In this document: positions 36,984 through 54,152 of the stretch, piece after piece | How the letters are laid out: each line of letters starts with the position of its first letter | Position numbering within the stretch: the stretch's first letter is position 1 | Origin: Candidatus Zhuqueibacterota bacterium | GTDB lineage: Bacteria > Zhuqueibacterota > Zhuqueibacteria > Residuimicrobiales > Oceaniaggregativiventaceae | Assembly: GCA_014728115.1 (NCBI GenBank) | Contig: WJME01000190.1 | Coordinates: 62,001 to 126,000 of the forward strand | Reading direction: 5' to 3' | DNA: 64,000 nucleotides | Translations under genes and position numbers: made by a program | The notes under the pieces: model-generated | Seen by the model: only the letters and a program-made list of their open reading frames with translations | Told to the model about the DNA's origin: nothing | The model's database searches: none

Positions 36984-37065
36984 CCGGTTTCGATGAATTC
37001 ATTACAAGGAGGACCTGTTATGATAGTTTAGTTTTGAAAATGCATAAATCGATTATTTTTAAGGG

Positions 37066-37086
37066 AAATAATTGTCACAATTATTT
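37066..37086. promoter_or_regulatory. 21-bp perfect palindrome upstream of the VTC gene
   Basis: AAATAATTGT and ACAATTATTT flank a single C. The palindrome ends 23 nt before the ATG at 37110. It probably acts as an operator; its sequence differs from the palindrome at 35617. Confidence 0.5.
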
Positions 37087-37109
37087 ACTTTGGACAGCAG
37101 TGAGGTATA

Positions 37110-37859
37110 ATGATAGAAAAAGCGATAGATACCCCTGGAAAGATGCGTTCAGAATTAAAATTTTGGGTTCCTCTTGTTCAAATGCAGCAGATCAAGCAAA
37201 CTATCGCGCCTTATGTACGCCGGGATCCTTATACGTTCTCTTTGCGTTATCCCAGATACTCTGTGCACACTATATATTTTGATTCCCCACAACTGGATTT
37301 TTATTATGAAAAGATGGATGGCTTGAAGGTCAGGAAAAAAGTCCGGTTGAGAACCTATAACCGGGCTCAAGATCATGCCCCCTTTTTCCTGGAAATCAAG
37401 CGACGGCATGACCGCGCAATCATCAAGGAGCGATGCATGATGAGTCATGAGGAGATCCAAGATTGGTGGCAGAAAAAGGATGGAAAGAACTTAAATAAAA
37501 AACACATAACACTTGAAAGAATCGATTATCTCATGAATGCTTATCGTTTGCGGCCTCAAATACTGGTGACCTATGACCGGGACGCATTTATTGATCGCGA
37601 TTTTTCGACTGTACGTCTTACATTGGATACAAACCTGGCCTTCACATCAGATCCGGAATTGAAAAATATCTATAGGGATGGGGAACTATCTTATTCCAAA
37701 GAGGGCGAAGGAATACTGGAATTTAAATTCAACGGATTGATGCCGAGATGGATGCGGCAGCTGACAACTCGCTTTTCATTAAGGTTCTTATCGATTTCAA
37801 AATATTGTATCGGTGTTGAACATGCACTGAGGAGCTCTCATGCCCACATCGCCCTTTGA
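37110..37859 (+). CDS. VTC-domain protein (polyphosphate polymerase-like)
   Basis: A 249-residue VTC (vacuolar transporter chaperone) domain protein. The tunnel-fold landmarks are present: MRSELKFWVP, YSVHTIYFDSPQLDFYYEKMDGLKVRKKVRLRTYN, FFLEIKRRHDRAIIKER, ILVTYDRDAFI, VRLTLDTNL and GILEFKFNG. The many basic residues and the conserved glutamates match the triphosphate-binding tunnel seen in yeast Vtc4. Bacterial homologues paired with DUF4956 are widespread, and whether they make polyphosphate is not established. It overlaps the next gene by 20 nt. Confidence 0.88.
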   Translation: MIEKAIDTPGKMRSELKFWVPLVQMQQIKQTIAPYVRRDPYTFSLRYPRYSVHTIYFDSPQLDFYYEKMDGLKVRKKVRLRTYNRAQDHAPFFLEIKRRHDRAIIKERCMMSHEEIQDWWQKKDGKNLNKKHITLERIDYLMNAYRLRPQILVTYDRDAFIDRDFSTVRLTLDTNLAFTSDPELKNIYRDGELSYSKEGEGILEFKFNGLMPRWMRQLTTRFSLRFLSISKYCIGVEHALRSSHAHIAL

Positions 37860-38532
37860 TCCTCTCTTTACCAATACAACAGATTCCATGTGGATGGCTG
37901 GTTTGGCAAATATGCTTACGGCACTCTTGTTTGGTCTTTTGGTTGCTGCAGTTTATAGATTGACTTTCAAAGGAGCGAGCTATTCGGCTTCTTTTGTCAT
38001 TACCCTGATTATGATTACGCTCGTCACCTCGATGGTGATTATGGTCATCGGCAGCAATCTGGCCCGGGCTTTTGGACTTGTGGGTGCCATGTCTATTATT
38101 CGTTTCCGGGCTGCCATCAAAGAAATCCGGGATATCGGCTATGTGTTTTTTGCGCTTGCCGTGGGTATGGCTGCAGGTTCCGGAAATCACGCTGTTGGTA
38201 TTGTCGGCGTCATCACCATTTCGATTGTTTTATTAGGGCTATATTTGGTCAGGTTCGGTCAGCATGACGATCACATGTTTTTTTTAAAATTTTGGATCAT
38301 GCCGGATCAACAAACAATGCAAATTTACCATCCTGTTTTTAGCAAGTACCTTTCCCACCACCAGCTACTCGCTGTGCGCTCGGCACGATTGGGTGAATAT
38401 TTAGAGTGCTCTTTTCGAGTGACATTCAGAGAATCTTTTCGTCGTTCAGAGTTTGTCTCGGATCTGAGTCGGCTGGAAGGAATTGAAAGAGTAGCATTAT
38501 TAATGGGTGAAGAGATTAATGATGCCCTATAA
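37840..38532 (+). CDS. DUF4956 membrane protein, VTC partner
   Basis: A 230-residue inner-membrane protein with about four helices (MLTALLFGLLVAAVYRLTF, FVITLIMITLVTSMVIMVI, DIGYVFFALAVGMAAGS, VGVITISIVLLGLYLV). The cytoplasmic motif ARAFGLVGAMSIIRFRAAIKE is the DUF4956 signature. The C-terminal soluble domain is MgtC-like in size. DUF4956 genes regularly follow VTC genes, suggesting a two-protein membrane complex. The start overlaps the VTC end by 20 nt. Confidence 0.88.
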   Translation: MPTSPFDPLFTNTTDSMWMAGLANMLTALLFGLLVAAVYRLTFKGASYSASFVITLIMITLVTSMVIMVIGSNLARAFGLVGAMSIIRFRAAIKEIRDIGYVFFALAVGMAAGSGNHAVGIVGVITISIVLLGLYLVRFGQHDDHMFFLKFWIMPDQQTMQIYHPVFSKYLSHHQLLAVRSARLGEYLECSFRVTFRESFRRSEFVSDLSRLEGIERVALLMGEEINDAL

Positions 38533-38723
38533 ATCACCCTCAAAAATCTGATACCTCTATCAAAATTCCACACGTACGCCCGACCAATACCAATTGTGTC
38601 ACTCTTTTTTTAATTCCAAGCTGTTGTTTTTTAATTGAGCTGGCTTGTTTCTTTTTTTGGTATGCAATTTGTACGGTTTCTTTTTCTCAGTACTGCAATG
38701 AAAACGACTTGAAAGGAGAGAAA

Positions 38724-41700
38724 ATGAAACGTTTATTTATTTTATTTTTCATGTCACAGCTGGTACTTTTTGCCTGGGCTGATGACGACTCTGTCGGAAT
38801 GCAGCACACCCGTCAGCTGATCCAGTCCGTGGCCATCTCTCAACTGACCCCGGGTGATATTCGTGCTGCTTTGCGACACCAACCGGGTACCGAACAAACC
38901 GGTGTCATCACCGGACAGCTTTATAATCTGGATGATGAGGCCTGGGAGTCTGCTTATGTCAAAGCCTTTACTGCAGATTCTTTGATCGGAGGTCCTGATC
39001 AGTTCGAATGGGTTGTCCCTGTCGAACCGGACGGACACTATCGTATCGACGGAGTTCCGGAAGGATCATATTATGTTTTTGCTGTTGCCAAAGGATACCA
39101 GGCCGTGTTTTATCCGGATGTGACCGACATCAGTGAGGCCAAACTTTTGCAAGTCGATGAAGGGCAAGAGATCACCGGCATCGATTTTCGTATGCGCATT
39201 TTACAGCCCGCAAAAGGTGCCATTGCCGGTCAGATCAGAGATAAAGAAACAGGGGATCCGCTCTCCAATGTCAGCATCTCTGTCTTTAGTTCTGATGGCG
39301 CCTCGCGACATGGATTTGCGACCAGTGATCGTGAGGGAAAGTATAGGGTGTCTGACTTGTCTTCCGGCTCTTATTATGTGAGTGCCTGGAGCAAAGATTA
39401 TATCCATGAATTCTATGACGGCGTGAATAACCAGGCACAGGCGACTCTTGTTCAGGTCTCGGATCCCGATACCACCCGGGAGATCGATTTTTCTCTGACC
39501 CTGGGAGGTGTGATCAGCGGATTTGTAACTGACAACGAAGGCAATCCTCTTGCCGATGTCTATATGTTGGCAACGGCTTTTCCCGATTCCACACTTGCCA
39601 ATCCGGAAGATTTTATCTGGAATGCCTATGGCAAAGCGGTGACGGACGAGTCCGGTCGCTATAAAATCAAGGGTTTGCCCGGTGCCGATTATTATGTCCT
39701 TGCCGAATCTCACACACCTTATGGCCAGGCATTCCGCTGGTATGAGAATGCGCTTACCCAAAGCGATGCCACTCCCATTACCCTGGCGGTGGGCGAACAG
39801 GTGACTGACATCGACTTTCAGATGCCGCTGGATCAACCGGATGGCTTTATTGCCGGTCATGTCACCTCAACAGACGGGCATCCGATAGAGGGCGCTTCTA
39901 TTCGCGTTCAGAGTTACGAGTCTTTTCCCGGGGACCCTTACTATTGGCAGGAAACCAAGACCAACGATGATGGTTATTATATCGTTAAAAATTTAATGTC
40001 CGGATGTCCCTATCTGGTGTCGGTTTGGATTCTGAATGGGAACCAAAAAATTCATCGCTGGTGGCCGGACAGTAAAGACCGGGTAATGGCTGAACCTGTC
40101 ATTGTCGGTGCACCGGATCATCCGGAAAATATCGATTTCAGGTTGACCATAGACCGGCAATCGGCCTCGATTTCAGGTCAGGTTTTGGATCTCAACGATC
40201 AGCCCCTGGCAGATGCACGCGTTCAGGTGAGTCCGGCTCCTGTGAGCTCAGACAGTTCGGTTTCTACCGAGATTTGGGCCAGTGGATACACTGATAAAGA
40301 GGGAGTTTATCGAATCGATAACCTGCCGGCCGGACATTACCGCGTCCATGCTCAGCATTGGCAAGACAATGCCTTTGGCGAACAGTGGTATGATCAGGTC
40401 GATGATCCTGAAAAAGCGACTCTGGTGACCCTGAGCAAGGATGAACAGCGTACCGGCGTTGACTTTAATCTCGATGTTCGTCCTCGTTATGGCGCCATCG
40501 TGGGACAGGTGCTGGATCAGGAGAGCGGTGTACCGCTGGAGCGTTGTTACGTCCAGATTCAGGTTCAGGGAGAATCGGAATCCACCAACGCCTCGTTTGC
40601 TCCCCGCATGTGGAATCGTTTTGCTGTTACGGATGCGAATGGCCGGTTCAATGTGGATTGGCTATACGAAGGAGAGTATCTGGTCTCGGTGTATGCAAAT
40701 AAAGGATTTACGTTTTATGAACAGGGTATCGTGCCTGACCAGGCCACCCCTGTTACGGTGAATGGGGGTGAACGCACGGAAATTACAGTCAACATGCCGC
40801 TTGAAACGGTTGGCAGTGGAGTCATCACTGGAACAGTGCAGAGCGTGATGACGGATTTGGTTTTCGAACCGTTTTCTCCTCTGCCATATGATATTGCCAT
40901 TGTCATCGCTCGGCCTGCCATCACGATTCTGTCCTGGCCCGAATCAGCCCGATTTTATTGCGCTGTGGTCAATCCTGACGGTTCATATGAGCTGGCAGGA
41001 TTACCTGCGGGAGAGTATTATATCATGAGTTTTGCGCCCTGGAGCGTTGCAAAATACTATGATGATAGTTATGATCCCGCCAAAGCCACCCTGGTAAAGG
41101 TGGGTGATGGTGAAACCGTCCCGGGAATTGATTTTCATCTCGATCCTATCCGCTGGCTCGAACTGGATCAACGTATGGCGCCGCAGCCAGGAACCAGTAC
41201 AATACATGGTATGGTCACCTCGCAAAAGGGCGAGGCGATTCCCAATGCATTGGTGTATGTGCTGGATGAAAACGAACAGCCGATTTCTTATGCTGTTAGC
41301 GATGAAAACGGATATTATCGTATCAGCGGACTCTTGGCCGGGGAATATGTGGTGCAAGCCGGGAATTTTGGATATTCCAGTGCATACAATGGTTCATCCA
41401 AAACGTTCAACGATACAGAGCCCATTACTGTCAGCGGGGAAAAAGAGATCAACTTTGTTCTGTCGCCCAATTCATCGACGTCTGTTGATGAAAAAAAACA
41501 GCCCCGGCATATTCGGCTTGTCGGTAACTATCCTAATCCGTTCAATCCCGAGACAACGATTATTTACCACACCGACAGATCCGCCAAAGTTCAACTGGAT
41601 ATTTACAACATAAAAGGTGAGCAGATCAATCGACTGGTCGATCAAACACAATCAGCAGGTGAATATCGTGTGGTTTGGCAAGGTGTCGACCATAAAGGTG

Positions 41701-41783
41701 AACAGGTTGCAAGCGGTATCTATTTTTACCGGCTCGAGATTGACTCTTTTCAGTTGCATGGCAAAATGATGCTGCTCCGGTAA
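38724..41783 (+). CDS. Large surface protein with about eight carboxypeptidase-regulatory-like repeats and sorting domain
   Basis: The start is ATG 38724 behind AAAGGAGAG (1019 residues), beginning with signal peptide MKRLFILFFMSQLVLFAWA. About eight tandem modules each have a G-x-I-x-G-x-V...PL..V strand set and YRI..L..G.Y-type centres. They end with an aromatic/aspartate segment such as FYDGVNNQAQATLVQV, WYDQVDDPEKATLVTL or YYDDSYDPAKATLVKV, followed by IDFxL. This is a CarboxypepD_reg or prealbumin-like beta-sandwich array. The last 80 residues are a type IX sorting domain (GNYPNPFNPETTI, LDIYNIKGEQINRLV, SGIYFYRLE). It is probably an extended stalk or adhesin on the cell surface. A strong terminator follows. 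Confidence 0.85.
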   Translation: MKRLFILFFMSQLVLFAWADDDSVGMQHTRQLIQSVAISQLTPGDIRAALRHQPGTEQTGVITGQLYNLDDEAWESAYVKAFTADSLIGGPDQFEWVVPVEPDGHYRIDGVPEGSYYVFAVAKGYQAVFYPDVTDISEAKLLQVDEGQEITGIDFRMRILQPAKGAIAGQIRDKETGDPLSNVSISVFSSDGASRHGFATSDREGKYRVSDLSSGSYYVSAWSKDYIHEFYDGVNNQAQATLVQVSDPDTTREIDFSLTLGGVISGFVTDNEGNPLADVYMLATAFPDSTLANPEDFIWNAYGKAVTDESGRYKIKGLPGADYYVLAESHTPYGQAFRWYENALTQSDATPITLAVGEQVTDIDFQMPLDQPDGFIAGHVTSTDGHPIEGASIRVQSYESFPGDPYYWQETKTNDDGYYIVKNLMSGCPYLVSVWILNGNQKIHRWWPDSKDRVMAEPVIVGAPDHPENIDFRLTIDRQSASISGQVLDLNDQPLADARVQVSPAPVSSDSSVSTEIWASGYTDKEGVYRIDNLPAGHYRVHAQHWQDNAFGEQWYDQVDDPEKATLVTLSKDEQRTGVDFNLDVRPRYGAIVGQVLDQESGVPLERCYVQIQVQGESESTNASFAPRMWNRFAVTDANGRFNVDWLYEGEYLVSVYANKGFTFYEQGIVPDQATPVTVNGGERTEITVNMPLETVGSGVITGTVQSVMTDLVFEPFSPLPYDIAIVIARPAITILSWPESARFYCAVVNPDGSYELAGLPAGEYYIMSFAPWSVAKYYDDSYDPAKATLVKVGDGETVPGIDFHLDPIRWLELDQRMAPQPGTSTIHGMVTSQKGEAIPNALVYVLDENEQPISYAVSDENGYYRISGLLAGEYVVQAGNFGYSSAYNGSSKTFNDTEPITVSGEKEINFVLSPNSSTSVDEKKQPRHIRLVGNYPNPFNPETTIIYHTDRSAKVQLDIYNIKGEQINRLVDQTQSAGEYRVVWQGVDHKGEQVASGIYFYRLEIDSFQLHGKMMLLR

Positions 41784-41822
41784 ATCGCCAGCTGTTTTTC
41801 AAGCGTGAATAACCAAAACTGA

Positions 41823-41849
41823 CCTCCGGCAGGAAACTGCCGGAGGTTT
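41823..41849 (+). terminator. Rho-independent terminator
   Basis: CCTCCGGCAG and CTGCCGGAGG form a perfect 10-bp stem closed by GAAA, followed by TTT. It separates the repeat protein from the two-component genes. Confidence 0.85.
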
Positions 41850-41963
41850 ATCGTTAAGGGGTTTTTCAGAGAGAAAAGCATATTGCATAAAAAGGTTGAT
41901 TTTTTTTCCAGAGTTGTGTAATAGAACGAGTGTCCATGTTTGCAAGATAGATTGGAGTGACGA

Positions 41964-43361
41964 GTGATACAAAGGCGGCTCATTCTTTTCTTTTTTTTAA
42001 ATACCCTGGTTGTTTTATTGTTGGCGGGGTTCTATTTGCAATACCGGGTGAGTGAGCATTTGGAGCGCCAGCTTGGTGACAAGCTTAAAGGCATTGCCAC
42101 AGCTGTTGCAGTACAAACAGATGCCCAGCTGGTGGCTTTGCTGACGCCGGGTGACGTGCAGACACGTACCTATCAGTTACTAAAAGTCAGGCTTGAGCGT
42201 ATCAAAGAACAAACCGGTATGCAGCGCCTGCTCATTTTATCTCCCAGCGGAGAAATCTGGCTTGATACCCAGACAGATGCCATCGGCGAACCCTATGCTC
42301 GATATCAATTCGACCAGTACGAAATCGAACAGGCTTTGTCGGGATCTCCTGCAAGTTCTGTGCTTTTTAGTGATGAACAGAAAAGATTGTTCAAGTCCGC
42401 ATATGCTCCTTTGCGAAAAAACAGCATCCAAGGGGTGGCTGTGGTGCAGGGAAGTGCCGCCTCGCTGGATGCGGTTCGGGATATTCAAGCCACGATATTC
42501 AAAATCGGGCTGGCCGGTCTTTTTTTCTCGATTATACTGGCGATGATTGTTTCGCGTCCTATCACTCGTCCTATTTTAGAATTGCAAAAAGCTGCACGCC
42601 GTATTGGTAAAGGACGCTGGGATCGACCCGTTCCCAGCCAAAAGGGGCCGAGGGAAATCGTGTTTTTGGCCCACACCATGGATGAAATGCGACGGGAATT
42701 GTTGGCCAGAGATGAGCAACAAAAAGCCATGCTCGCCGGCATAGCCCATGAAATTCGCAATCCTCTCGGAGGCATCGAACTGTATGCAGGGATTCTGAAC
42801 GACGAAATATCTGACGTCGATATACAGAAAAATGTGGATAAAATACTCAAAGAGAGTCAAAATCTCAAAATTTTGATCGATCAGTTTATCGACTATGCCA
42901 GGCCACTCAAACCACAGCAAGAACAGACGAGTGTCAAAAAGATCTGGCTGGATGTGGCCATGATGATCGAACCTGAATGTGAAAAGTTTGGTATTCGTCT
43001 GGAAATATGGGATGATGTGACCATTCTCATGGATCCACAACATCTCCGACAAGTGTTTCTGAATCTCGCTTTAAATTCTATACAGGCAATGGCTGAACCG
43101 GCTGATCAACAAAAGATAATCTCTATCGAGGTTATTTCTCATGATCCTGTAAAGATCGAATTCAAAGATACCGGACCGGGCATCCCCGAGTCGATCCGGG
43201 AACGGATATTTGAACCCTTTTTTACCCAAAAAGCCAGCGGTATGGGGCTCGGTCTGACTATGGTCAAAAAATTGATGGAAGCCAATAAAGCGAGTATTTT
43301 CTTGTCCTCTAGCGGCAATACGGGAACCTGTTTTATATTGAATTTTCCATCTCAGAGATGA
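41964..43361 (+). CDS. Sensor histidine kinase (NtrB/AtoS-like)
   Basis: A 465-residue membrane kinase starting at GTG 41964 behind TTGGAGTGA. The first helix (LILFFFLNTLVVLLLAGFYL), a periplasmic sensor of about 150 residues and a second helix (IGLAGLFFSIILAMIV) are followed by a HAMP region (RPITRPILELQKAARRIGKG). The transmitter has an H-box GIAHEIRNPLGG, N-box LNLALNSIQAMA, G1 FKDTGPGIPE, F-box FEPFFTQK and G2 GMGLGLTMVK. It phosphorylates the response regulator 10 nt downstream. The sensed signal is unknown. Confidence 0.95.
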   Translation: MIQRRLILFFFLNTLVVLLLAGFYLQYRVSEHLERQLGDKLKGIATAVAVQTDAQLVALLTPGDVQTRTYQLLKVRLERIKEQTGMQRLLILSPSGEIWLDTQTDAIGEPYARYQFDQYEIEQALSGSPASSVLFSDEQKRLFKSAYAPLRKNSIQGVAVVQGSAASLDAVRDIQATIFKIGLAGLFFSIILAMIVSRPITRPILELQKAARRIGKGRWDRPVPSQKGPREIVFLAHTMDEMRRELLARDEQQKAMLAGIAHEIRNPLGGIELYAGILNDEISDVDIQKNVDKILKESQNLKILIDQFIDYARPLKPQQEQTSVKKIWLDVAMMIEPECEKFGIRLEIWDDVTILMDPQHLRQVFLNLALNSIQAMAEPADQQKIISIEVISHDPVKIEFKDTGPGIPESIRERIFEPFFTQKASGMGLGLTMVKKLMEANKASIFLSSSGNTGTCFILNFPSQR

Positions 43362-43371
43362 GGCAATCATT

Positions 43372-44733
43372 ATGCATCAACTCATGATTATCGAAGACAA
43401 TGAGACATTGCGCGAAGGCATGGCTCATGTACTGAAAAAGCTGCCGGTCAAAATTCGCTCCTTTGATGATCCTGTCAAGGCTTGTGAATGGTTTGAGCAG
43501 AACCATGTCGACCTGGTAATTACAGATTATCGTATGCCCGGAATGGATGGCATGCAGGTGCTTGAAAAAATCAAATCCGCTTCACCGGAAACGCTGGTGC
43601 TCTTGATCACTGCATACGGAACCATTGATTTGGCTGTAGACGCAATGAAACGTGGTGCTTCGGATTTTATCACCAAACCGTTTTCGAATCAAGAGTTCAG
43701 CGCGCAAGTTGAAAAGTTGTGTCAACAACTCGATCGCTATAAAGAGATGAATCGATTACTGGAAGAAAATGTCTATCTGCGTCAAGAGCTGGAAGGAGAA
43801 TTTAACTTTGGCGAGATCATCGGCCAGACAGAAGCGATAAAATCGTTATTCCGTACGATCACCAAGGTTGCACGTACAGATTCCTCTGTACTGATCTATG
43901 GTGAAAGCGGCACTGGAAAAGAACTCGTGGCAAGAGCAATTCATAAATCCAGTCCGCGACAGGATAAACCGTTTATCCGTGTCAACTGTGGTGCCCTGGC
44001 AGAAGGGGTGTTGGAATCCGAACTCTTTGGTCATGAAAAGGGCGCCTTTACCGGTGCGATCAAACAGCGCAAAGGACGATTCGAGCTGGCAAATGACGGC
44101 ACTCTTTTTCTCGATGAAATCGGAGAGTTGCCGTCAGGATTGCAAGTCAAATTGTTGCGGGTATTGCAGGAACAGGATTTCGAGCGGGTAGGGGGAGAAG
44201 AGACGATTCGAGTCAATGTGAGAATGATTACCGCGACCCACAGAGATCTGGAAAAACTCGTCCGAGAAGGTGGGTTTCGGGAAGATCTGTATTACCGCTT
44301 GCATATCATTCCCATTCATGTGCCCCCTTTGCGGGAGCGGAGTGATGATATTCCGTTATTAAGCCACTACTTTTTGGAGCGCATGAGCAAGCGATTGGGT
44401 CTGGGAGAGATTTCCCTGTCCAGAGATGCGCTGCAACGTCTGCAATCTTATACCTGGCCGGGTAACGTGCGCGAACTGGAAAATGTGCTGGAACGGGCTT
44501 GTGTCCTGGCCGAAAATAACGTGATCCATGCCGATGATCTGCCCATATCTGTTAAAGATCAGCGAATACCGGCCAGCCAAAATCTCAATGATATTTTGGC
44601 GTTTGTGGAAAAGCAAACCATTGAAAAAGCCATGCACAAGGCACATGGTGTCAAAACACGAGCCGCCCGATTGCTGGGGATCAAAACGAGTGCTCTGTAT
44701 TATAAATTGGAAAAATATGGCATGATCGAATGA
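43372..44733 (+). CDS. NtrC-family sigma-54-dependent response regulator
   Basis: A 453-residue regulator with three domains. The receiver has phospho-acceptor Asp52 in VITDYRMPGMDG and Lys in ITKPF. The AAA+ domain has Walker A GESGTGKE, ESELFGHEKGAFTGAI (the GAFTGA loop that contacts sigma-54) and GTLFLDEIGELP. The C-terminus is a Fis-type HTH (AMHKAHGVKTRAARLLGIKTSALYYKLEKYGM). When phosphorylated it should activate a sigma-54 promoter; one lies just downstream at 44904. It forms an operon with the kinase. Confidence 0.97.
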   Translation: MHQLMIIEDNETLREGMAHVLKKLPVKIRSFDDPVKACEWFEQNHVDLVITDYRMPGMDGMQVLEKIKSASPETLVLLITAYGTIDLAVDAMKRGASDFITKPFSNQEFSAQVEKLCQQLDRYKEMNRLLEENVYLRQELEGEFNFGEIIGQTEAIKSLFRTITKVARTDSSVLIYGESGTGKELVARAIHKSSPRQDKPFIRVNCGALAEGVLESELFGHEKGAFTGAIKQRKGRFELANDGTLFLDEIGELPSGLQVKLLRVLQEQDFERVGGEETIRVNVRMITATHRDLEKLVREGGFREDLYYRLHIIPIHVPPLRERSDDIPLLSHYFLERMSKRLGLGEISLSRDALQRLQSYTWPGNVRELENVLERACVLAENNVIHADDLPISVKDQRIPASQNLNDILAFVEKQTIEKAMHKAHGVKTRAARLLGIKTSALYYKLEKYGMIE

Positions 44734-44787
44734 TCCTGCTACCGGGGCCGGATCAGGAATTTTGCCACCAGCGAGCGGTCGATCGGA

Positions 44788-44814
44788 TATCAGATATCTG
44801 AGAGTTTTATCAGA
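44788..44814 (+). promoter_or_regulatory. Candidate upstream activator site for the NtrC-type regulator
   Basis: The perfect palindrome TCAGATATCTGA (44790-44801) overlaps two TATCAGA repeats spaced 20 bp apart (44788 and 44808), about two helical turns. The site is centred about 130 bp upstream of the predicted sigma-54 start, the usual distance for NtrC-family enhancers. Binding is inferred. Confidence 0.5.
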
Positions 44815-44903
44815 CCTTTGATATCCAGAGACCAGACAAAGGTTAAACGAGATTACAAGTTCAATAAAAATAGTTATGAAATTGTGGGAAATCATGATTT
44901 TTC

Positions 44904-44919
44904 TGGCCTCCTTTTTGCA
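44904..44919 (+). promoter_or_regulatory. Sigma-54 promoter
   Basis: TGGCCTCCTTTTTGCA has GG and GC separated by exactly 10 nt, with T-rich TTTTTGCA at -12, matching the TGGCAC-N5-TTGCA consensus well. The transcription start would be near 44930, with AGGAG and ATG 44954 downstream. It lies inside the extended ORF from 44876, which supports the later start. Confidence 0.7.
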
Positions 44920-44953
44920 AAGAGATTACCGGGTGCAATATAGGAGAATTGCA

Positions 44954-46771
44954 ATGAAGCGAATGTTCACTGTCATGCTGGTCCTGTTCTCGACCCTGAT
45001 GGTGCAGGCACAGTATCACAATCAAAGGGTTTTGCAAAAATCTTTCGAACAAACCGATTTCTTTTTTCGGTCAAATATACCAAATCCCTATGGATTGGGT
45101 GAGTTTGGAAGCTCTGCTATCGGACTCGTCGATGATCCTTTGTTAAATATTCAACTCAATCCGGCTTTTATGAACCTTTCTCTCAAGGGAAATCACTGGG
45201 TCTATCTCAACTTTCGCAACGACCTGGAAAAAAAGGAACACCAGTCCTATTATTTTTATCCCATGTACCGGGACTATATCTGGTATCCCCGGTATTACCA
45301 GCAATCCCGCTCGGTTTTAAATCCCATCTTTTCAGGTGCCTATATGGCTCGGGTGATTCCCGAAAAGGTCGCCCTGGGTGTGTCTTATCAGCTCTTGCTC
45401 AGCGACGAAGCCTATTATGATATCCCCCAGGATATCTATAAATCAGAGTTGGGATATGATTATTCCGGCACCCGCATGAGCGCAGAGGACAAGGATATCC
45501 CGATTGTTGACAAGTATAAAGGGGCGGATGAAATGCATCATCGCGCTCATTTTCTTAATGCCTATGCGAACTGGCGAATACATTCCAGGGTGACCCTCGG
45601 GGCCAGGGTGGGGCTTACCACCTTTGACAGACAAGGTGAGTGGGGCAAGCTGAATCAAGATGACCGAAATATCTATTATAACCAGTTTTCCAAGCATATG
45701 GATTGGCAAACCCGGAATCAAAATTACGATCACATCGACGCCAGTGGCGGTATATCCTTAAAAGTGAGCTCTAAAACACGATTGGCTGCACAGGGGGGGT
45801 ATCTGCGGGGCGATGTCGATCAGGACTATACCAAAGAAAACGAATTTTTGTATCAGCATGGCGAAAGAAATACCGGCACTGACTGGAGTTACCGCGATGG
45901 CTTGGGTTCGAAAATACAAACCTGGAAGATGAATGGCCATGCCTGGAGTGGCGGAGTGAGTCTGCTATCCGATTTGTCAGATCAGCATCGGCTCGTGATC
46001 TATGGCCAAACCCGGCAACACGAATCGGATATCGATCTGGCTTCTGCTATTCATGACACCTCTTTTTACTCTTATCATAATGAATACGAATACGATAATG
46101 TGTACAGAATTTATGACTCGGAATCACGATATGGTTTGCAGGATAATCGAACCGGATTGGGAGCCCAGGAAGAACATTATTATCGCCTGGCTGTTGCGTT
46201 ACAATGGCAGTTGACCAAGAGTTCACGACTCTCGTTCGGGCTGAACTGGACATCTCTGGCACGAACGATTGAAACCATCGAATCGGTTCGATCCTATCGC
46301 GAGTCCTATCATGTGTGGAGCCGACAAGAGGTAAGTGAGGTGGACAAGAACGAATATATTTCGGAAACACAAGAGATCAAGGATCTGAAATGGGATTTTG
46401 AGGCCAACATGCTCGATTTTCAGATCCCGGTTTACTATCAACAAAAGATTGGCGACCATGTTGAACTCGTATTGGGATTCAATCGTCGGATGCGGGATAA
46501 TGACATCCGTGATGTCACTCTGGCGATATATGACTATTTTTATCAACGCCACAACGGTTCCGAGACAGAGAAAACGAATTTCGGGGAACGCTATACAGAG
46601 CCCGCTGAACATCGATCAGAGGTGACCACAACAGTGCTGGCCGGACTGGTCATCAAACCTTCTGAAAGGGTGGAAATCCGATTGCTGGCGTCACCAATTT
46701 ATCGCGACACCTATGAAGGATCTGAACTGGACGAAATCCAGTGGTGGCTGGATTTTAGCCTGACCCCCTGA
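44954..46771 (+). CDS. Outer-membrane beta-barrel protein under sigma-54 control (hypothetical)
   Basis: The start is ATG 44954 (AGGAGAATTGCA before it), giving 605 residues with signal peptide MKRMFTVMLVLFSTLMVQAQ. The track's start at 44876 lies upstream of the sigma-54 promoter. The N-terminal part (PYGLGEFGSSAIGLVDDPLLNIQLNPAFMNLS) resembles the PorV/FadL-type 'D-NPA' opening. The rest is a long beta-barrel with many aromatic/charged strands. The function is unknown. Placement after the kinase/NtrC pair implies it is the main regulated target, perhaps a signal-responsive porin or surface structure. Confidence 0.75.
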   Translation: MKRMFTVMLVLFSTLMVQAQYHNQRVLQKSFEQTDFFFRSNIPNPYGLGEFGSSAIGLVDDPLLNIQLNPAFMNLSLKGNHWVYLNFRNDLEKKEHQSYYFYPMYRDYIWYPRYYQQSRSVLNPIFSGAYMARVIPEKVALGVSYQLLLSDEAYYDIPQDIYKSELGYDYSGTRMSAEDKDIPIVDKYKGADEMHHRAHFLNAYANWRIHSRVTLGARVGLTTFDRQGEWGKLNQDDRNIYYNQFSKHMDWQTRNQNYDHIDASGGISLKVSSKTRLAAQGGYLRGDVDQDYTKENEFLYQHGERNTGTDWSYRDGLGSKIQTWKMNGHAWSGGVSLLSDLSDQHRLVIYGQTRQHESDIDLASAIHDTSFYSYHNEYEYDNVYRIYDSESRYGLQDNRTGLGAQEEHYYRLAVALQWQLTKSSRLSFGLNWTSLARTIETIESVRSYRESYHVWSRQEVSEVDKNEYISETQEIKDLKWDFEANMLDFQIPVYYQQKIGDHVELVLGFNRRMRDNDIRDVTLAIYDYFYQRHNGSETEKTNFGERYTEPAEHRSEVTTTVLAGLVIKPSERVEIRLLASPIYRDTYEGSELDEIQWWLDFSLTP

Positions 46772-46810
46772 TCAAATTCGGACAGGAAATGCTGAGACCT
46801 GAGATATCAT

Positions 46811-46839
46811 TTGACATGCACCGTTTAATTTAATAAATT
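46811..46839 (+). promoter_or_regulatory. Sigma-70-like promoter for the coiled-coil/barrel pair
   Basis: TTGACA (46811-46816) and TAAATT (46834-46839) are separated by 17 nt. The ATG at 46862 follows 22 nt later. This suggests transcription independent of the sigma-54 gene upstream. Confidence 0.55.
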
Positions 46840-46861
46840 TTTATTTCTAGTGTAGTGATTT

Positions 46862-47851
46862 ATGGAAAAACATATCGTCTTGAAATCAATTTTCCTTTGC
46901 TGTGTGTTGTTACTTTGTGCTTTATTCAGTAACTCACATGCTCAAACGTTGACTCTGAGTCGTTTGGATTCTTTGCGTTCAGAACGAATGCAAGCACGAC
47001 TGGAGAGGGATTCTCTGCAACAACGGATCGATAGTCTTGCTGTCGTGATTTATGAATACAAATCTCTCAAGAGTCAGGGCTATTTTGAAAAACGAAAATT
47101 GCAGAATTACTTACGCGAGTCCATACAACTCTCTGATCAGTTACAAGATGTTCAGTTAAAAACGAATCATCTGGACGAGCGAATATCAAAGCTGAGCGAT
47201 CGTCTGCTTTTGCGCTATGATCGACAAATCGATTCGTTGATGCAACATCCCTCTCATGAGGCAGAGTGGGTCCAGGAGATATCGGAATTACAACAAAAGC
47301 GCCAACAGTTACAAAAATGGCTGGAACCCGATCAACCCGTACAATCGGTTTACGATATTGAAATTTTGGAAACCGACACACCGGAAGAAATCGATCTCAA
47401 AGTTTCATTTTATCGGGATCAGGCGCAACGCCTCGTTGAACAGGCCGGTCAGATGAACGAGCAAATCGACCGGATCCGACAAGAAAATCGAATCCGCCAA
47501 CGGATGTCCGATTTGGTAGATGATGTGACACTCTTTGCCCAGAATGATGAATCGATTGTGGTAGAGAATCCTCCTGAAAGAGTAACAACCGAATATGCCG
47601 GCCCCATTGGTAATCCCGATGATTCTTTTCGGGAATCCGATGAAAACAAAATCTTTGATCAGAGCTTGAATGCCGAGCCGGCGCGCACACCGGATATACA
47701 AAATATGGCACCCCAGGAACTGGATCGCTATATTCGCATCCTCGAGAATCAAGAACAAAGATACAGCCGTCTGGCGGACAGTCTGCGTCAGATGGCTGAT
47801 AAATATGAAAAAGAGGCTGAAAAACTGAGGAACAGTCTGAAACCTTACTAG
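46862..47851 (+). CDS. Secreted coiled-coil protein (hypothetical)
   Basis: A 329-residue exported protein with signal peptide MEKHIVLKSIFLCCVLLLCALFSNSHAQ. Most of it is charged, leucine/glutamine-rich coiled coil (LDSLRSERMQARLERDSLQQRIDSL, ISELQQKRQQLQKWL, YIRILENQEQRYSRLADSLRQM). No enzymatic motif is seen. There is no ribosome site of note. The stop is followed at once by the ATG of the barrel gene, so the two likely act together, the coiled coil perhaps spanning the periplasm. Confidence 0.72.
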   Translation: MEKHIVLKSIFLCCVLLLCALFSNSHAQTLTLSRLDSLRSERMQARLERDSLQQRIDSLAVVIYEYKSLKSQGYFEKRKLQNYLRESIQLSDQLQDVQLKTNHLDERISKLSDRLLLRYDRQIDSLMQHPSHEAEWVQEISELQQKRQQLQKWLEPDQPVQSVYDIEILETDTPEEIDLKVSFYRDQAQRLVEQAGQMNEQIDRIRQENRIRQRMSDLVDDVTLFAQNDESIVVENPPERVTTEYAGPIGNPDDSFRESDENKIFDQSLNAEPARTPDIQNMAPQELDRYIRILENQEQRYSRLADSLRQMADKYEKEAEKLRNSLKPY

Positions 47852-48892
47852 ATGAGCCCTTTATCCGTACGGATTTTTCTTATTTTTTTTGGTCTATACG
47901 CCTCCGGTCTTGCTCAAATCAGAGCACAAAATCGTGTTCAAATCGGACTGGAACAGGATAATAACGTCCTGGAATCGCTATCGCATGCCCAAAGCGATCA
48001 ATCTGCCCGTCTGTTGATTTCTACCCGCGCCTGGTGGCAGCACTCCCATGGTCAGGTCACGCTTAGCGGGCAGGCCGGAGTGCAAGGATATCGCCAGGTC
48101 ACCCGGGACCACAAATCCATTCAGCAGCTGATGCTGACCTCCCGGATTAATGTGTCCGGAACCCGCCTGGGTATGAAAGGATGGGTGCGGAACAAGGTCT
48201 ATTTCAACAAGAATCATGATTATACGATTCTGGGTGGGGCTCCATTTTGGTCTGTCCCTTTTTTCGATATTCATACCATCAGTGTGGGTGTGGAAACCGA
48301 GAGACTGGCCTATTCCTCTTTTCCAAGGTATAATTACCATCGTCTGGGAATCACAGGTCTCGTGCGCACGCGTCTATCCCGCCAGCTTTTGATCTCTGCG
48401 ATGATCATCAACGATCGGTATCAGGTTAATCGTCCCGCCTTGCGATACCATCCCACCTCATTTACCTGGCAGACCCTCGGGGAGGATATTGAGAACCGCG
48501 AAATGAGAATAGGAATGTCTGTGGATTGGTTTAGTGGCTGGCTCCTGCAAGCCTCTGTGTTTTATGGCAACAATCGTTCCAATAGCCAGGGATTTGCGTT
48601 TCGGCGCTGGATACTCTCCCTCAATACGAGTCGGGAGATCAATACGGTTCTTGTTCGTCTTTTGATCCATCTGCAGCACAAGACCTATACCGATGATCAT
48701 TTCCCGGACCTTCCTGTGGATATCGATAGCGAAAGGGAAGAGAGTAATTTTGTTATTTTTGACCTTTCTTTTCCGATTTTTCCTGCAATCACACTTTTGA
48801 GTCGGATATCCTGGTACCGCAATGCCTCACCTTTCCCGATGTATTATTATGACAAAGTATTGTTCGATATTGGATTGGAATATCGGTTTTGA
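47852..48892 (+). CDS. Outer-membrane beta-barrel protein (hypothetical)
   Basis: A 346-residue exported protein with signal peptide ending near ASGLAQIRAQ and a beta-barrel pattern throughout (ISTRAWWQHSHGQVTLSGQAGVQGY, GMKGWVRNKVYF, LLQASVFYGNNRSN) that ends LFDIGLEYRF with C-terminal Phe, as expected for BAM-assembled proteins. It directly abuts the coiled-coil gene. The family is not recognised. Confidence 0.7.
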   Translation: MSPLSVRIFLIFFGLYASGLAQIRAQNRVQIGLEQDNNVLESLSHAQSDQSARLLISTRAWWQHSHGQVTLSGQAGVQGYRQVTRDHKSIQQLMLTSRINVSGTRLGMKGWVRNKVYFNKNHDYTILGGAPFWSVPFFDIHTISVGVETERLAYSSFPRYNYHRLGITGLVRTRLSRQLLISAMIINDRYQVNRPALRYHPTSFTWQTLGEDIENREMRIGMSVDWFSGWLLQASVFYGNNRSNSQGFAFRRWILSLNTSREINTVLVRLLIHLQHKTYTDDHFPDLPVDIDSEREESNFVIFDLSFPIFPAITLLSRISWYRNASPFPMYYYDKVLFDIGLEYRF

Positions 48893-48933
48893 GCTATATA
48901 GGTCTTGCAAAAGTGAATATTTTTTTGCAGCTT

Positions 48934-48966
48934 TTAACTCTTTCAATTACCAGAGAGTTAATTTTT
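48934..48966 (+). terminator. Rho-independent terminator
   Basis: TTAACTCT (48934-48941) pairs with AGAGTTAA (48954-48961), followed by five T. It ends the coiled-coil/barrel operon. Confidence 0.7.
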
Positions 48967-49042
48967 CCGATAATCTCATGCTTTGATAAAAGACTGTACT
49001 CTTGGCGTATACTGTTTTTTTATCCATTGGGGAGTGCTTTAT

Positions 49043-50311
49043 ATGCCAGCCACGGCGCACGAATTGTATGCATTTCTTAAAACCATTCCTATACTCGACA
49101 CATTCACCCGGGTTCGTGTCGATCATCCTTTTGCCCGAACTCCGTTTGATATTCTCGGGCATCCCATGATCACGTCTCTTTGCCATGCAGCGGGTATGGA
49201 TCCAGATGCCATTAAATACACGGTTCCTGACCGGGAACGCACCCGGGCGGTTCTCTCTTTTTTACCTGCCTTGGAAAATACCCGTATTTTTCAACTGGTC
49301 CTTGAGATTGCCCAAAGATTCTGGAAAATCGATCCCGGGCAATTGTTACATGGAAATGTGGATGATTTATACGATCAAGTGGAAATTCTATCTGAACAAC
49401 CCAATCGTCTGGGAGATCTGCTGAAAGAATCAAATATCCACAGAATCATTGCAGCCATCGATTTCGATCATGAGATCGAAAATGATCTGTCCTATGCCCG
49501 CTATTCTATGCAATTGGACGACCTTATCGATTGGGACGCCAAAGAGATCCGAGACCGGTTTGTTACTATCACGGATATCCAGGTTACAAACGCTTCGAGT
49601 TTCAAATTAGCTCTATTCAAGCTTTTCGATCGTCTCACCCGGCACCATGGCGCTTCTGTACATTTGCGTATTCCTCCTGACCTGGTGCTCGAGCGTGTCT
49701 CTGACAATCGTATCGATACTCTGATCGCCAAGGCCAATCGCGGCGACCGGTTTAATCTTTTGGAAAGAAATCAGTTGGCGACATTTATGCTTTTCAAAGT
49801 CTGTGCAAGCTGCCAGGAAAATCAGCTGCCTCTGCAGTTGCTGATGGGCACTCTGCGTGATGTCTATGATCACGGTGTGCCCGGTGGCGGCAATTTGTGG
49901 GATCAGCGTTTTTCAATGATGAATTTGCATGAAATGTTCAATGCCTATCCCGGGGTCACATTTTTGGTCAGTCCTATCAATAGCAACCAAAATGGTGAAC
50001 TCGTTTCTTTTGCTTCAGTCTATCACAATGTAATCGCCAGTGGTCATTGGTGGTTTAGCAATATACCTGTGCTCGTGGAAAAAGACCTCAGGGCCAGAAT
50101 TCAGGCCATTCCACGCAACAAAATTCATCCGTTTTTTAGCTCTGCATCACATCTTGAATGGATATTGCCGAGTTTTTCCCAATACCATCAGGTGCTTGTG
50201 GATGTCTTGAGCGATGAGTTCATCGCCACACGGGGATGGAGTATCGATAAAACAATAGAGTGGAGTCGCAAGGTTCTCTATGAACAACCCAAATCAATAT
50301 TTAACCTGTGA
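49043..50311 (+). CDS. Divergent glucuronate isomerase (UxaC)-like protein
   Basis: The start is ATG 49043 behind GGGGAG (422 residues). Several UxaC-family features can be aligned: LFHG-like QLLHGNVDDLYD, the LQLLMGTLRDVYDHGVPGGGN core, LVSPINSNQNGELVSFAS, SGHWWFSNIP (UxaC has GWWFxD) and a terminal YHQVLVDVL. UxaC isomerises glucuronate and galacturonate using a metal site with an N-terminal HxH. Here the corresponding N-terminus ILDTFTRVRVDH lacks HxH, so catalysis is uncertain. It precedes a microprotein and a sodium:solute symporter, which suggests a sugar-acid-related role. The assignment to the family rests on motif resemblance only. Confidence 0.6.
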   Translation: MPATAHELYAFLKTIPILDTFTRVRVDHPFARTPFDILGHPMITSLCHAAGMDPDAIKYTVPDRERTRAVLSFLPALENTRIFQLVLEIAQRFWKIDPGQLLHGNVDDLYDQVEILSEQPNRLGDLLKESNIHRIIAAIDFDHEIENDLSYARYSMQLDDLIDWDAKEIRDRFVTITDIQVTNASSFKLALFKLFDRLTRHHGASVHLRIPPDLVLERVSDNRIDTLIAKANRGDRFNLLERNQLATFMLFKVCASCQENQLPLQLLMGTLRDVYDHGVPGGGNLWDQRFSMMNLHEMFNAYPGVTFLVSPINSNQNGELVSFASVYHNVIASGHWWFSNIPVLVEKDLRARIQAIPRNKIHPFFSSASHLEWILPSFSQYHQVLVDVLSDEFIATRGWSIDKTIEWSRKVLYEQPKSIFNL

Positions 50312-50322
50312 TTGGAGGAAAA

Positions 50323-50436
50323 ATGTTCGATTGGTTTATATGGGGATTGGAACTTGTCGGATTGGTGATTCTCGTTGCCTGGATCATCCTTCCTATTAAA
50401 GAAGTAAAGCATATCATTCAACAAATGCGGAAATAA
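50323..50436 (+). CDS. 37-residue single-helix membrane protein
   Basis: This ORF is too short for the track: ATG 50323 to TAA 50434-50436, preceded by GGAGG with good spacing. The protein has an aromatic N-terminus (MFDWFIWG), one membrane helix (LELVGLVILVAWIILPI) and a basic cytoplasmic tail (KEVKHIIQQMRK). It lies 11 nt after the UxaC-like gene and 45 nt before the symporter. Small accessory subunits are known next to several SSS-family symporters, so a helper role is plausible. Confidence 0.7.
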   Translation: MFDWFIWGLELVGLVILVAWIILPIKEVKHIIQQMRK

Positions 50437-50481
50437 TTCGGCGTGGAAATGAATCAATGACAATCAGGAGCAAGCGGCGAA

Positions 50482-52131
50482 ATGGTAACCATCGATTATG
50501 TTGTCTTTATCAGTTTTTTGGTAGGTCTCTTTATTGTTGGCTCTATATTATACAAGTGGGTTGGGGAACCGGATGACTATTTTGTCGCCGGAAGAAATTT
50601 ACCGCCTTTTATCCTCGCTGCCACGCTGGTGGCAACGAATGTCAATCTTTATAGCTTTATCGGTCAAACCGGTGCCGCCTATCAGGAGGGCATTTCTATT
50701 GTCTGGCAGGCCTGGACCGGTAATATGGCTATCGTCTTTTCCGGTCTGTTTATACTGCCCATTTTTAGGCGTTTGCGAGTTCGCACCGTCCCCGAATATC
50801 TGGAACTGCGCTATAACCGGCTGGTGAGGTCGCTGGTGGGCTTGCTGTGGGTATTCCGTTTGGCTTTTTGGCTGGGTGTAACCATGTACACCGGCGCAAT
50901 CGCAGCAGAAACATTGACCGGAATTCACTCTTTTACTCTGTGGCTTTTTGTTTTTGGGATTATTGCCATAACCTTTACCACCCTGGGCGGAATGTGGTCA
51001 GTAGCCCTAACCGATGCCTTGCAGTTTGTCTTGATGCTCGGTGGTGCACTGATCCTGTTACCTCTGGCCATGAAAAGTGTGGGGTGGACACCCGGCTTGA
51101 TCGATAAACTGCCCCAAGGACATTTCGAGTTTGTCAAGCAACACGGAAATTATAACTGGCAATTCATGCTCGCCATCCTTGTGCTCGGTATTCAATGGGC
51201 CAGTACCGATCAGGGAATGATTCAGCGTACCTTTAGTGCCAATAGCGTACGAACCATTGTGAAAGGCATGGTATGGGCAGGGATTATTACCACGCCTTTT
51301 ATTCTCATCATCCTCCTGCCAGGCCTGGTGGCGGCTGTCAATACGCCGGGATTGGAGAATATCGATGTGGCTTATCCCATGATGATGGCTAAAACTCTGG
51401 CTCCTTTTCTTTTGGGATTGATGGTATGCGGACTCTTTTCCTCCCATCTTTCCACGGTCGATTCCAATCTCAATGCTGTGGCCACAGTGTTTACCGCTGA
51501 TATCTATCAGGCTGTATTTAACCGCCAGGCGAGCAAAAAAAATGTGCTATGGGTCGCCCGATTAACCACTATTTTGGCGGGTGTTTTGATGATTTTGGTG
51601 GCTTATATCGTCCCTCTCCTGGGCGGAGCTGTACAAGCTTATCTGACCATCATCAGCATTATGGACATGCCGCTTTTTGTGGTTGCCGTGATTTACGGAC
51701 TCTTGTGGCGCCGCAGTAACTGGCAAGGCGCTCTTGCAGGATATCTCGCCGGCGCATTGGCCGGGATCGTCGCACGATTCGGATTTGGGGTCGATGTCAA
51801 TGTCACCACCTTCATCAGTGCCGGTGCTGCGCTGGTGGTGTGCCCAATCGTTTCCCTGCTGACACCGCTCACTGACGAGAACCAGTTGCTGACGATCTGG
51901 AAAGCGAAAAAAGCGGATCAGGAAGAACATACTCTGGGCCAGGCTTATCATATTTTTCCACACTCTTTTTGGGCCAAAACCGGCACATTGGTGCTTGGCC
52001 TGGGATTGGTATCGTTTGTCACCGGCGCCTTGATCGGGTCAACCGGACATTCGTTTCTGGCCAGTATCTTTGCCATCGGGGGAATGCTGGTCTTTTTTGC
52101 CGGAGGACTGATCAAAGTGTATGCCCGCTGA
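50482..52131 (+). CDS. Sodium:solute symporter (SSS family)
   Basis: A 549-residue inner-membrane symporter of the SGLT/SSS family with about 14 helices. Motifs include DDYFVAGRNLPPFILAATLVATNVNLYSFIGQTGAAY, GMWSVALTDALQFVLMLGGALILLPLA (the conserved 'TDxxQ' region) and LFSSHLSTVDSNLNAVATVFTADIYQ. Such proteins import sugars, sugar acids, amino acids or vitamins with Na+. GGAGC precedes ATG. The UxaC-like protein and microprotein upstream suggest a carbohydrate substrate. Confidence 0.93.
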   Translation: MVTIDYVVFISFLVGLFIVGSILYKWVGEPDDYFVAGRNLPPFILAATLVATNVNLYSFIGQTGAAYQEGISIVWQAWTGNMAIVFSGLFILPIFRRLRVRTVPEYLELRYNRLVRSLVGLLWVFRLAFWLGVTMYTGAIAAETLTGIHSFTLWLFVFGIIAITFTTLGGMWSVALTDALQFVLMLGGALILLPLAMKSVGWTPGLIDKLPQGHFEFVKQHGNYNWQFMLAILVLGIQWASTDQGMIQRTFSANSVRTIVKGMVWAGIITTPFILIILLPGLVAAVNTPGLENIDVAYPMMMAKTLAPFLLGLMVCGLFSSHLSTVDSNLNAVATVFTADIYQAVFNRQASKKNVLWVARLTTILAGVLMILVAYIVPLLGGAVQAYLTIISIMDMPLFVVAVIYGLLWRRSNWQGALAGYLAGALAGIVARFGFGVDVNVTTFISAGAALVVCPIVSLLTPLTDENQLLTIWKAKKADQEEHTLGQAYHIFPHSFWAKTGTLVLGLGLVSFVTGALIGSTGHSFLASIFAIGGMLVFFAGGLIKVYAR

Positions 52132-52178
52132 GTCAGGCTTTTGGGCATCAGGCCTGACCGGGAACAAAATAATCGTAT

Positions 52179-54152
52179 ATGCCATTAACAGCATTATCCT
52201 CTCTTTCATTATTTGGAGTTTCTATCAATAAAAAGCGTAAAATGTGGGGGATTTTGTTCTGCTCGAGTTTGGTTTTATTGAGCCTGTATCTCGGTTGTGC
52301 AGGACGATCCTCCTGGACAGATCCTTTACCGCCTGAGCTGGTCAGCAATCTCGATGACAAAGAATACCAGGATTATGGTGCCGTGATCCTCCTGGATGAG
52401 GCCGAATTGCAGATTATGCGAGGCGACATCCGATTATCAGAACGAGAACGGCACAGGATTGTAAAAATCCTCAATGATCGCGGCTATGGATTTGCGAATG
52501 TAACCATTCCTTTCAGCAGTCAGACAGAAATATCGAATATCCGTGGTCGTACGATCACACCGGATGGCGGGATACAGCCCCTTGACCCTTCTGAAATCTA
52601 TGAGATCACAGCTCATCCTGAATTTATCTTTTATTCTGATGTGAAAGCCAAGCGGTTTACCTTGCCGGCAGTACAGGATGGAAGTATCATCGAATACCGG
52701 TGGAATGAACGGGTGAGCGGTTACACCAACTGGAATACATGGACTTTTCAATCCAGTGTACCGGTATTGCAATCGCGATATCGGCTTTCTATGCCTTCGG
52801 AATGGGATTTCAAATGGACCAGTCAGAATATTCAGGTAGAGTTTGACTCTATTCCGGCTCCACAGGGATTCAATCGTGTTTACGAGTGGCGGGCAGAAAA
52901 TATTGCGCCTTTGATCCCCAAAGTGGGTATGCCGTCTCTGAATAAAGTAATGGGTTCCCTGACTTTTTCACCTGTGGGGATTTCTGACTGGCAGGATGTG
53001 GCTCGATGGTACCATGGGCTTGTCAAAGAACGAATAAAGCCGACCCACAGAATCGCCCGCAAAGCCCGGGAACTGATTGCAGGAGCTGAGAACCAGCGTG
53101 AACAGTTAGAGCGGTTGGCCGAGTTTGTCAGAGATCATGTGCGCTATGTCGCCATTTCAATCGGTATAGGCGGATATCAACCCCATTTTGCTCAAGAGGT
53201 TTTAACCAAGCGCTACGGAGATTGTAAGGACAAGGTAACCTTGTTGATCGCCCTTGCGCAATCGGTGAATATTAAAGTCGAGCCGGTCATCATTTCCACC
53301 TGGCAGAATGGAAAAGTGGATACCACGGTCGCGAGTCAAACCCATTTTAATCACTTGATCGCTCGTGCAACTCTGGATGACAGCAGTCGAGTGTGGGTGG
53401 ATGCCACAGATAAAATGACACCGTTTGGAGAGTTGCCCTGGTATGATCAGGACAGATTGGTATGGATTGTAAGAGATGATGGCTCGGGGGTATGGGAGCG
53501 CACACCTGCCAATGCTGCATCAGACAATATGACGGTCCGCCATTGGCAACTCGCCCTGGATGGTAGAGGCGCAGCAGGGTCATTGGAGATTCGGTATGCA
53601 GGCGCAGAAGCACACGATTTCAGACGTCTGTTTTGGTCCCATTTACCCAAACAACGCCGCGAATGGGTCGAACGTCAGATTCGTTCACGATTTCCTCAGG
53701 CCAGAATCACAGATGTGCGAATCGACTCGGTAAGAAAGATAGAGCAGCCCGTGCGCATAAGAGCTCAATTCAGAACGAGATTCGAATATCCATTGCACCT
53801 TCCGCTGGATCGTTTTTTTGCCAGCGATTGGCATCTTTTATTGGCGGATTCAAGCCGGGTATATCCCATCGATATTCGCTATCCTTCGGTGAGTAAAGAT
53901 CAGCTTTATATGCAATGGCATGATGAATATCATATCGAACACAATATCGAAAATTCGGCTATTCAAGACTCGATATTGCATTGGCACCAGACGGTCAATA
54001 CGACCCAGGGACTGCACCTTGCCCAGGAGCTACGGCTTTTTCGGCGACGAATCGATACACTCGAACTAGCTGATGTGAAAGCAGTGTTTGATGACATTGC
54101 ACAACAGCAGCAACAGTGGATTTTGATTCGTAAAACAGACAAAAGTAATTGA
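52179..54152 (+). CDS. DUF3857/transglutaminase-like lipoprotein
   Basis: An exported protein with a hydrophobic N-terminus ending in the lipobox-like LYLGCAG, a DUF3857 domain (LLDEAELQIMRGDIRLSERERHRIVKILNDRG, ITPDGGIQPLDPSEI, GSIIEYRWNERVSG) and a transglutaminase-like core. Cys is in RYGDCKDKVTLLIAL, His in THFNHLIARA and Asp in VWVDATDKM. Such proteins may be peptidases or crosslinkers acting outside the inner membrane; the substrate is unknown. The start is uncertain: ATG 52179 has no ribosome site and ATG 52242 is 23 nt from GGAG. KKRK just before the hydrophobic stretch favours a start upstream of 52242. Confidence 0.85.
   Translation: MPLTALSSLSLFGVSINKKRKMWGILFCSSLVLLSLYLGCAGRSSWTDPLPPELVSNLDDKEYQDYGAVILLDEAELQIMRGDIRLSERERHRIVKILNDRGYGFANVTIPFSSQTEISNIRGRTITPDGGIQPLDPSEIYEITAHPEFIFYSDVKAKRFTLPAVQDGSIIEYRWNERVSGYTNWNTWTFQSSVPVLQSRYRLSMPSEWDFKWTSQNIQVEFDSIPAPQGFNRVYEWRAENIAPLIPKVGMPSLNKVMGSLTFSPVGISDWQDVARWYHGLVKERIKPTHRIARKARELIAGAENQREQLERLAEFVRDHVRYVAISIGIGGYQPHFAQEVLTKRYGDCKDKVTLLIALAQSVNIKVEPVIISTWQNGKVDTTVASQTHFNHLIARATLDDSSRVWVDATDKMTPFGELPWYDQDRLVWIVRDDGSGVWERTPANAASDNMTVRHWQLALDGRGAAGSLEIRYAGAEAHDFRRLFWSHLPKQRREWVERQIRSRFPQARITDVRIDSVRKIEQPVRIRAQFRTRFEYPLHLPLDRFFASDWHLLLADSSRVYPIDIRYPSVSKDQLYMQWHDEYHIEHNIENSAIQDSILHWHQTVNTTQGLHLAQELRLFRRRIDTLELADVKAVFDDIAQQQQQWILIRKTDKSN

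Follow-up and report, generated by a model that had tools for sequence, protein, structure and literature searches.

The spacer upstream of OM605, a gene for a 605-residue outer-membrane protein, very probably holds the operator and promoter of a small sigma-54 regulon that would be run by the adjacent two-component pair. It lies in a window of 64,000 nucleotides from a genome of Zhuqueibacterota, which we take to be the same as candidate division KSB1. The spacer measures 220 bp and follows the stop codon of an NtrC-type regulator gene (44733). We regard the sigma-54 promoter in it as real, accompanied by two predicted activator sites in tandem, and this promoter very likely switches on OM605. 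The regulatory elements, the kinase and regulator genes, and the genes OM605, CRD1018, CC329 and OM346 all lie on the + strand.

The elements themselves were read from the sequence. The -24/-12 element TGGCCTCCTTTTTGCA (44904-44919) has the strict GG-N10-GC spacing noted in the preliminary description, stands in a TGGC and TTGC context, and ends about 34-35 nt before the ATG at 44954; it is conserved at the orthologous loci of the genomes L024 and L020. Two TATCAGA copies do start 20 bp apart, at 44788 and 44808, and the second is half of a dyad. The upstream element is better described as two tandem 12-bp dyads of the form TCARN4YTGA than as a palindrome plus repeats: dyad 1, TCAGATATCTGA (44790-44801), is a perfect palindrome, and dyad 2, TCAGACCTTTGA (44810-44821), follows 20 bp from it, a pairing of 20-21 bp that also occurs in other genomes of the class. 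Dyad 1 lies 153-164 bp from the ATG and about 140 bp from the expected transcription start near 44930, and the distance of about 130 bp given for it earlier was slightly short. Dyad activator sites are found within the range of some 80-200 bp upstream that a sigma-54 promoter with an NtrC-type activator requires. The OM605 promoter is among the weaker members of a set of 18, with C at the fifth position where 17 of the 18 have A.

A start codon at 44876, giving 631 residues, would leave the promoter within the coding sequence, so 605 residues (44954-46771) is the right length. Orthologues likewise align from 44954, where the protein opens with a signal peptide, and a likely ribosome-binding site, AGGAG, stands at 44942-44946; the corrected start is therefore upheld. 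The AlphaFold model of OM605 is a confidently predicted beta barrel (mean pLDDT 80.7), consistent with its proposed role as an outer-membrane target. OM605 has no Pfam family match, and a fold search of the PDB gave no close solved relative, all hits being generic barrels of low TM score.

An AT-rich spacer could in principle contain GG-N10-GC and repeats resembling a palindrome by chance, and the pattern TGGCN7TTGCA by itself does occur 114 times in the 7-Mb genome (192 for the off-register TGGCN8TTGCW, searched for comparison), so the -24/-12 element alone is weak evidence. A second copy in the window falls within a coding gene. A -24/-12 score this high appears in 0.5% of Markov-shuffled copies of the 220-bp spacer, the tandem dyad pair at 5e-6 per shuffled spacer, and both jointly in 0 of 200,000. 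Together with the recurrence of the pair across genomes, this makes a chance origin extremely improbable. It is the dyad pair and its cross-genome footprint that carry the case, not the -24/-12 element alone. A scan of the genome for both elements, as the preliminary description had suggested, likewise bore out the tandem pair, which is essentially unique with only one other locus, and not the -24/-12 pattern, which is common; these whole-genome statistics derive from pattern searches. Relaxed matches to the tandem pair other than those at OM605 and CRD1018 lie inside open frames without a strong element, and sequences close to the 14-mer TATCAGATATCTGA at other genomic positions had no adjacent strong -24/-12 element in the six loci checked. 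An Rfam scan of 37000-53000 gave no match.

The footprint was followed through 63 genomes of the class, in the phylum described in PMC11683472. Tandem dyads gave about 42 forward matches, compared with 1 for the reversed-pattern control. A strong GG-N10-GC element (score of at least 13) stands 82-214 bp away from 18 of 23 strict pairs (background 6.5%; P ~1e-17), and TGG and TTGC are invariant in all 18. Strict pairs occur in 15 of the 38 genomes with an orthologue of the window kinase and in 2 of the 25 without one (P 0.008), and such an orthologue lies within 7 kb of 9 of the 23 pairs where about 0.04 would be expected (P ~1e-19, or 1.6e-10 after removal of the four sites from which the motif was defined). 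As these genomes are draft MAGs, and the P values treat related genomes in the class tallies as independent and rest on a motif tightened on the sites found here, they represent strong support rather than exact odds.

Two other lineages preserve the arrangement at OM605 itself. In L024 (KSB1 Bin_298, same family) the genes for the secreted protein, the kinase, NtrC and OM605 follow one another as they do in the window, and a dyad pair at 21-bp spacing and TGGTATCTTTTTTGCT stand at the same position before OM605. In L020, from a different family, OM605 stands behind genes for a coiled-coil protein, a 346-residue barrel and a lipoprotein, and a dyad pair with TGGCACAGAGCTTGCG precedes the lipoprotein-OM605 unit, after the OM346 homologue. 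A vestige would not show such joint conservation of operator and promoter at the same gene. It is very unlikely that the sigma-54 element is vestigial and that OM605 owes its transcription mainly to an ordinary housekeeping-sigma promoter or to read-through of the kinase and NtrC genes, although the genes share one strand, the gaps between them measure about 90-220 bp, and nothing between NtrC and OM605 is convincing as a terminator. Of the OM605 orthologues elsewhere, those in Bacteroidota and Ignavibacteria included, most lack both the NtrC motif and dyads nearby, which also speaks for that reading and indicates that OM605 can be expressed by other means. In three genomes of other genera, imperfect tandem dyads and a -24/-12 element lie directly before the kinase gene (L165 3639-3772, L166 9232-9366, L170 8039-8219, all numbered on the kinase strand), which suggests autoregulation there.

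The pair to which we assign the operator consists of a membrane sensor histidine kinase with HAMP, HisKA and HATPase_c domains (41964-43361), with orthologues above 100 bits in about 38 of the 63 genomes, and an NtrC-type activator (43372-44733) with a receiver, an AAA+ domain carrying the GAFTGA loop, and a Fis-type HTH, KTSALYYKLEKYG. An rpoN gene, on which the whole proposal depends, is present in the genome (Sigma54_DBD, E 3.8e-62). Promoter and dyads could also be real with the dyads bound by a different sigma-54 activator, the adjacent pair being merely a neighbour: the genome has 43 activator-domain matches, more than 30 of them full-strength, and more than half of the strict sites of the class lie far from a kinase orthologue. 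This is nevertheless very unlikely, given the co-location at 9 of 23 sites and the co-variation of the operator with the recognition helix of the window regulator, a helix region found in no other readable sigma-54 activator of the genome. The operator is present in 11 of 17 orthologues with a YYK-type helix and in 0 of 10 with an LYK-type helix (P 0.001); several orthologue genomes with the same helix have no strict pair. What the sequences show, namely the elements with their spacing and conservation, their location near the regulator and the way they co-vary with its helix, points to the adjacent pair, as the preliminary description had proposed. In L185, L190 and L195, strong -24/-12 elements without TCAR dyads precede genes 3' of the OM346 homologue, and the LYK-type regulators of these genomes may use another site. 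In the orthologous NtrC of L024 (10320-11675), GAFTNA replaces the sigma-54-contacting GAFTGA, with operators and promoters intact.

The preliminary description named OM605 as the sole gene placed to respond, but there are other candidate targets. A degenerate second operator (38540-38571), made up of the full dyad TCAAAAATCTGA and, 20 bp further along, half a dyad, precedes CRD1018 (38727-41783), which encodes a secreted CarboxypepD_reg-repeat protein with a T9SS-type C-terminal sorting domain; a possible degenerate -24/-12 element, TGGTATGCAATTTGTA (38658-38673), has GT for GC and lies 118 bp from its dyad. At the corresponding place in L024, before the CRD1018 homologue, there is a perfect pair with TGGTACATGAATTGCA, and in L178 an operator stands upstream of a CRD1018 homologue. 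Two envelope genes come after OM605 on its strand: CC329 (46862-47851), a probable coiled-coil protein with a signal peptide (both judged by eye) and no Pfam family match, and OM346 (47852-48892), a predicted beta-barrel whose AlphaFold model is nearly all beta at moderate confidence (66.5). A sigma-70-like site lies in the gap between OM605 and CC329 (46811-46839). Homologues of CC329 and OM346 stand directly 3' of NtrC in most relatives, and by this synteny they, not OM605, are the constant partners of the kinase-NtrC pair. The description of a complete circuit is not supported. Further along the window are a gene for a 442-residue protein with a weak glucuronate isomerase match (48983-50311; 32 bits against a cut-off of 387) and a sodium:solute symporter gene (50482-52131).

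In the various genomes, the genes that stand behind the operator encode OM605, CarboxypepD_reg/T9SS-type proteins, or lipoproteins with and without a BsuPI domain, or belong to operons with serpins; most of their products are exported, and the Pfam matches seen among them are to T9SS-type tails, serpin and BsuPI. Serpin-domain genes (Pfam Serpin, E <1e-110) repeatedly adjoin OM605-family genes or operator-driven operons (L024:6488-7732, L236:5464-6687, L026:3565-4779, L029:7458-8678); in the window, none was seen next to OM605.

In the proposed mechanism, an envelope signal would lead the kinase to phosphorylate the NtrC-type regulator, two dimers of which would occupy the tandem dyads at a distance of some two helical turns. 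The AAA+ assembly would then contact the sigma-54 polymerase waiting at the -24/-12 element, some 90-115 bp downstream, and OM605 transcription would start near 44930. The secreted protein gene at 38727 would probably be activated too, more weakly, from its own operator, and across KSB1 the same regulator-operator pair would drive changing sets of exported proteins. More tentatively, the block of kinase, NtrC, coiled-coil exported protein and 346-residue barrel might form a trans-envelope surface-sensing system of KSB1, in which barrel and coiled coil relay the state of the surface to the kinase and the regulator responds by renewing barrels, T9SS-type cargo, serpin and protease-inhibitor lipoproteins there. 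Since the genes for the coiled-coil protein and NtrC overlap in L020, both this protein and the barrel may belong to the sensor instead of its output. An uncultured phylum thereby gains a regulator whose predicted binding site on DNA and whose targets can be followed through many genomes, barrels and exported proteins of unknown function are tied to a signalling pair, and envelope regulation in KSB1 becomes testable by reporter assays without cultivation.

Among known systems, AtoS/AtoC and NtrB/NtrC share the receiver, AAA+ and Fis-HTH architecture with the window regulator, and AtoS and AtoC are the best hits of kinase and regulator. The kinase is far below the AtoS equivalog cut-off (160 vs 646 bits), the regulator reaches 472 bits where the AtoC equivalog NF008469 demands 714, and the targets of both differ. 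The PrsK/PrsR PEP-CTERM system (Haft et al. 2006, PMC1569441) likewise combines a histidine kinase with an NtrC-like sigma-54 activator, and a conserved activator motif and -24(GG)/-12(GC) element precede many genes for exported, sorted surface proteins; the end of the -24/-12 element lies on average 71 nt from the start codon there and 34 nt from it at OM605. The two systems differ in that the conserved partner of PrsK/PrsR is the TPR protein PrsT rather than a coiled-coil protein and a barrel, and in that the Pfam matches seen among the KSB1 targets are to T9SS-type tails, serpin and BsuPI. As the window regulator scores below the cut-off of the PrsR model TIGR02915 (420.5 vs 502.6 bits), the pair would work like PrsK/PrsR yet is not classed there. 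Within the library searched, no paper named KSB1 together with sigma-54. Sigma-54 regulons are enriched in envelope and exterior functions, with AtoC-like activators as the dominant group (Francke et al. 2011, PMC3162934), and the proposed KSB1 circuit agrees with this general trend, in which sigma-54 controls the exterior of the bacterium.
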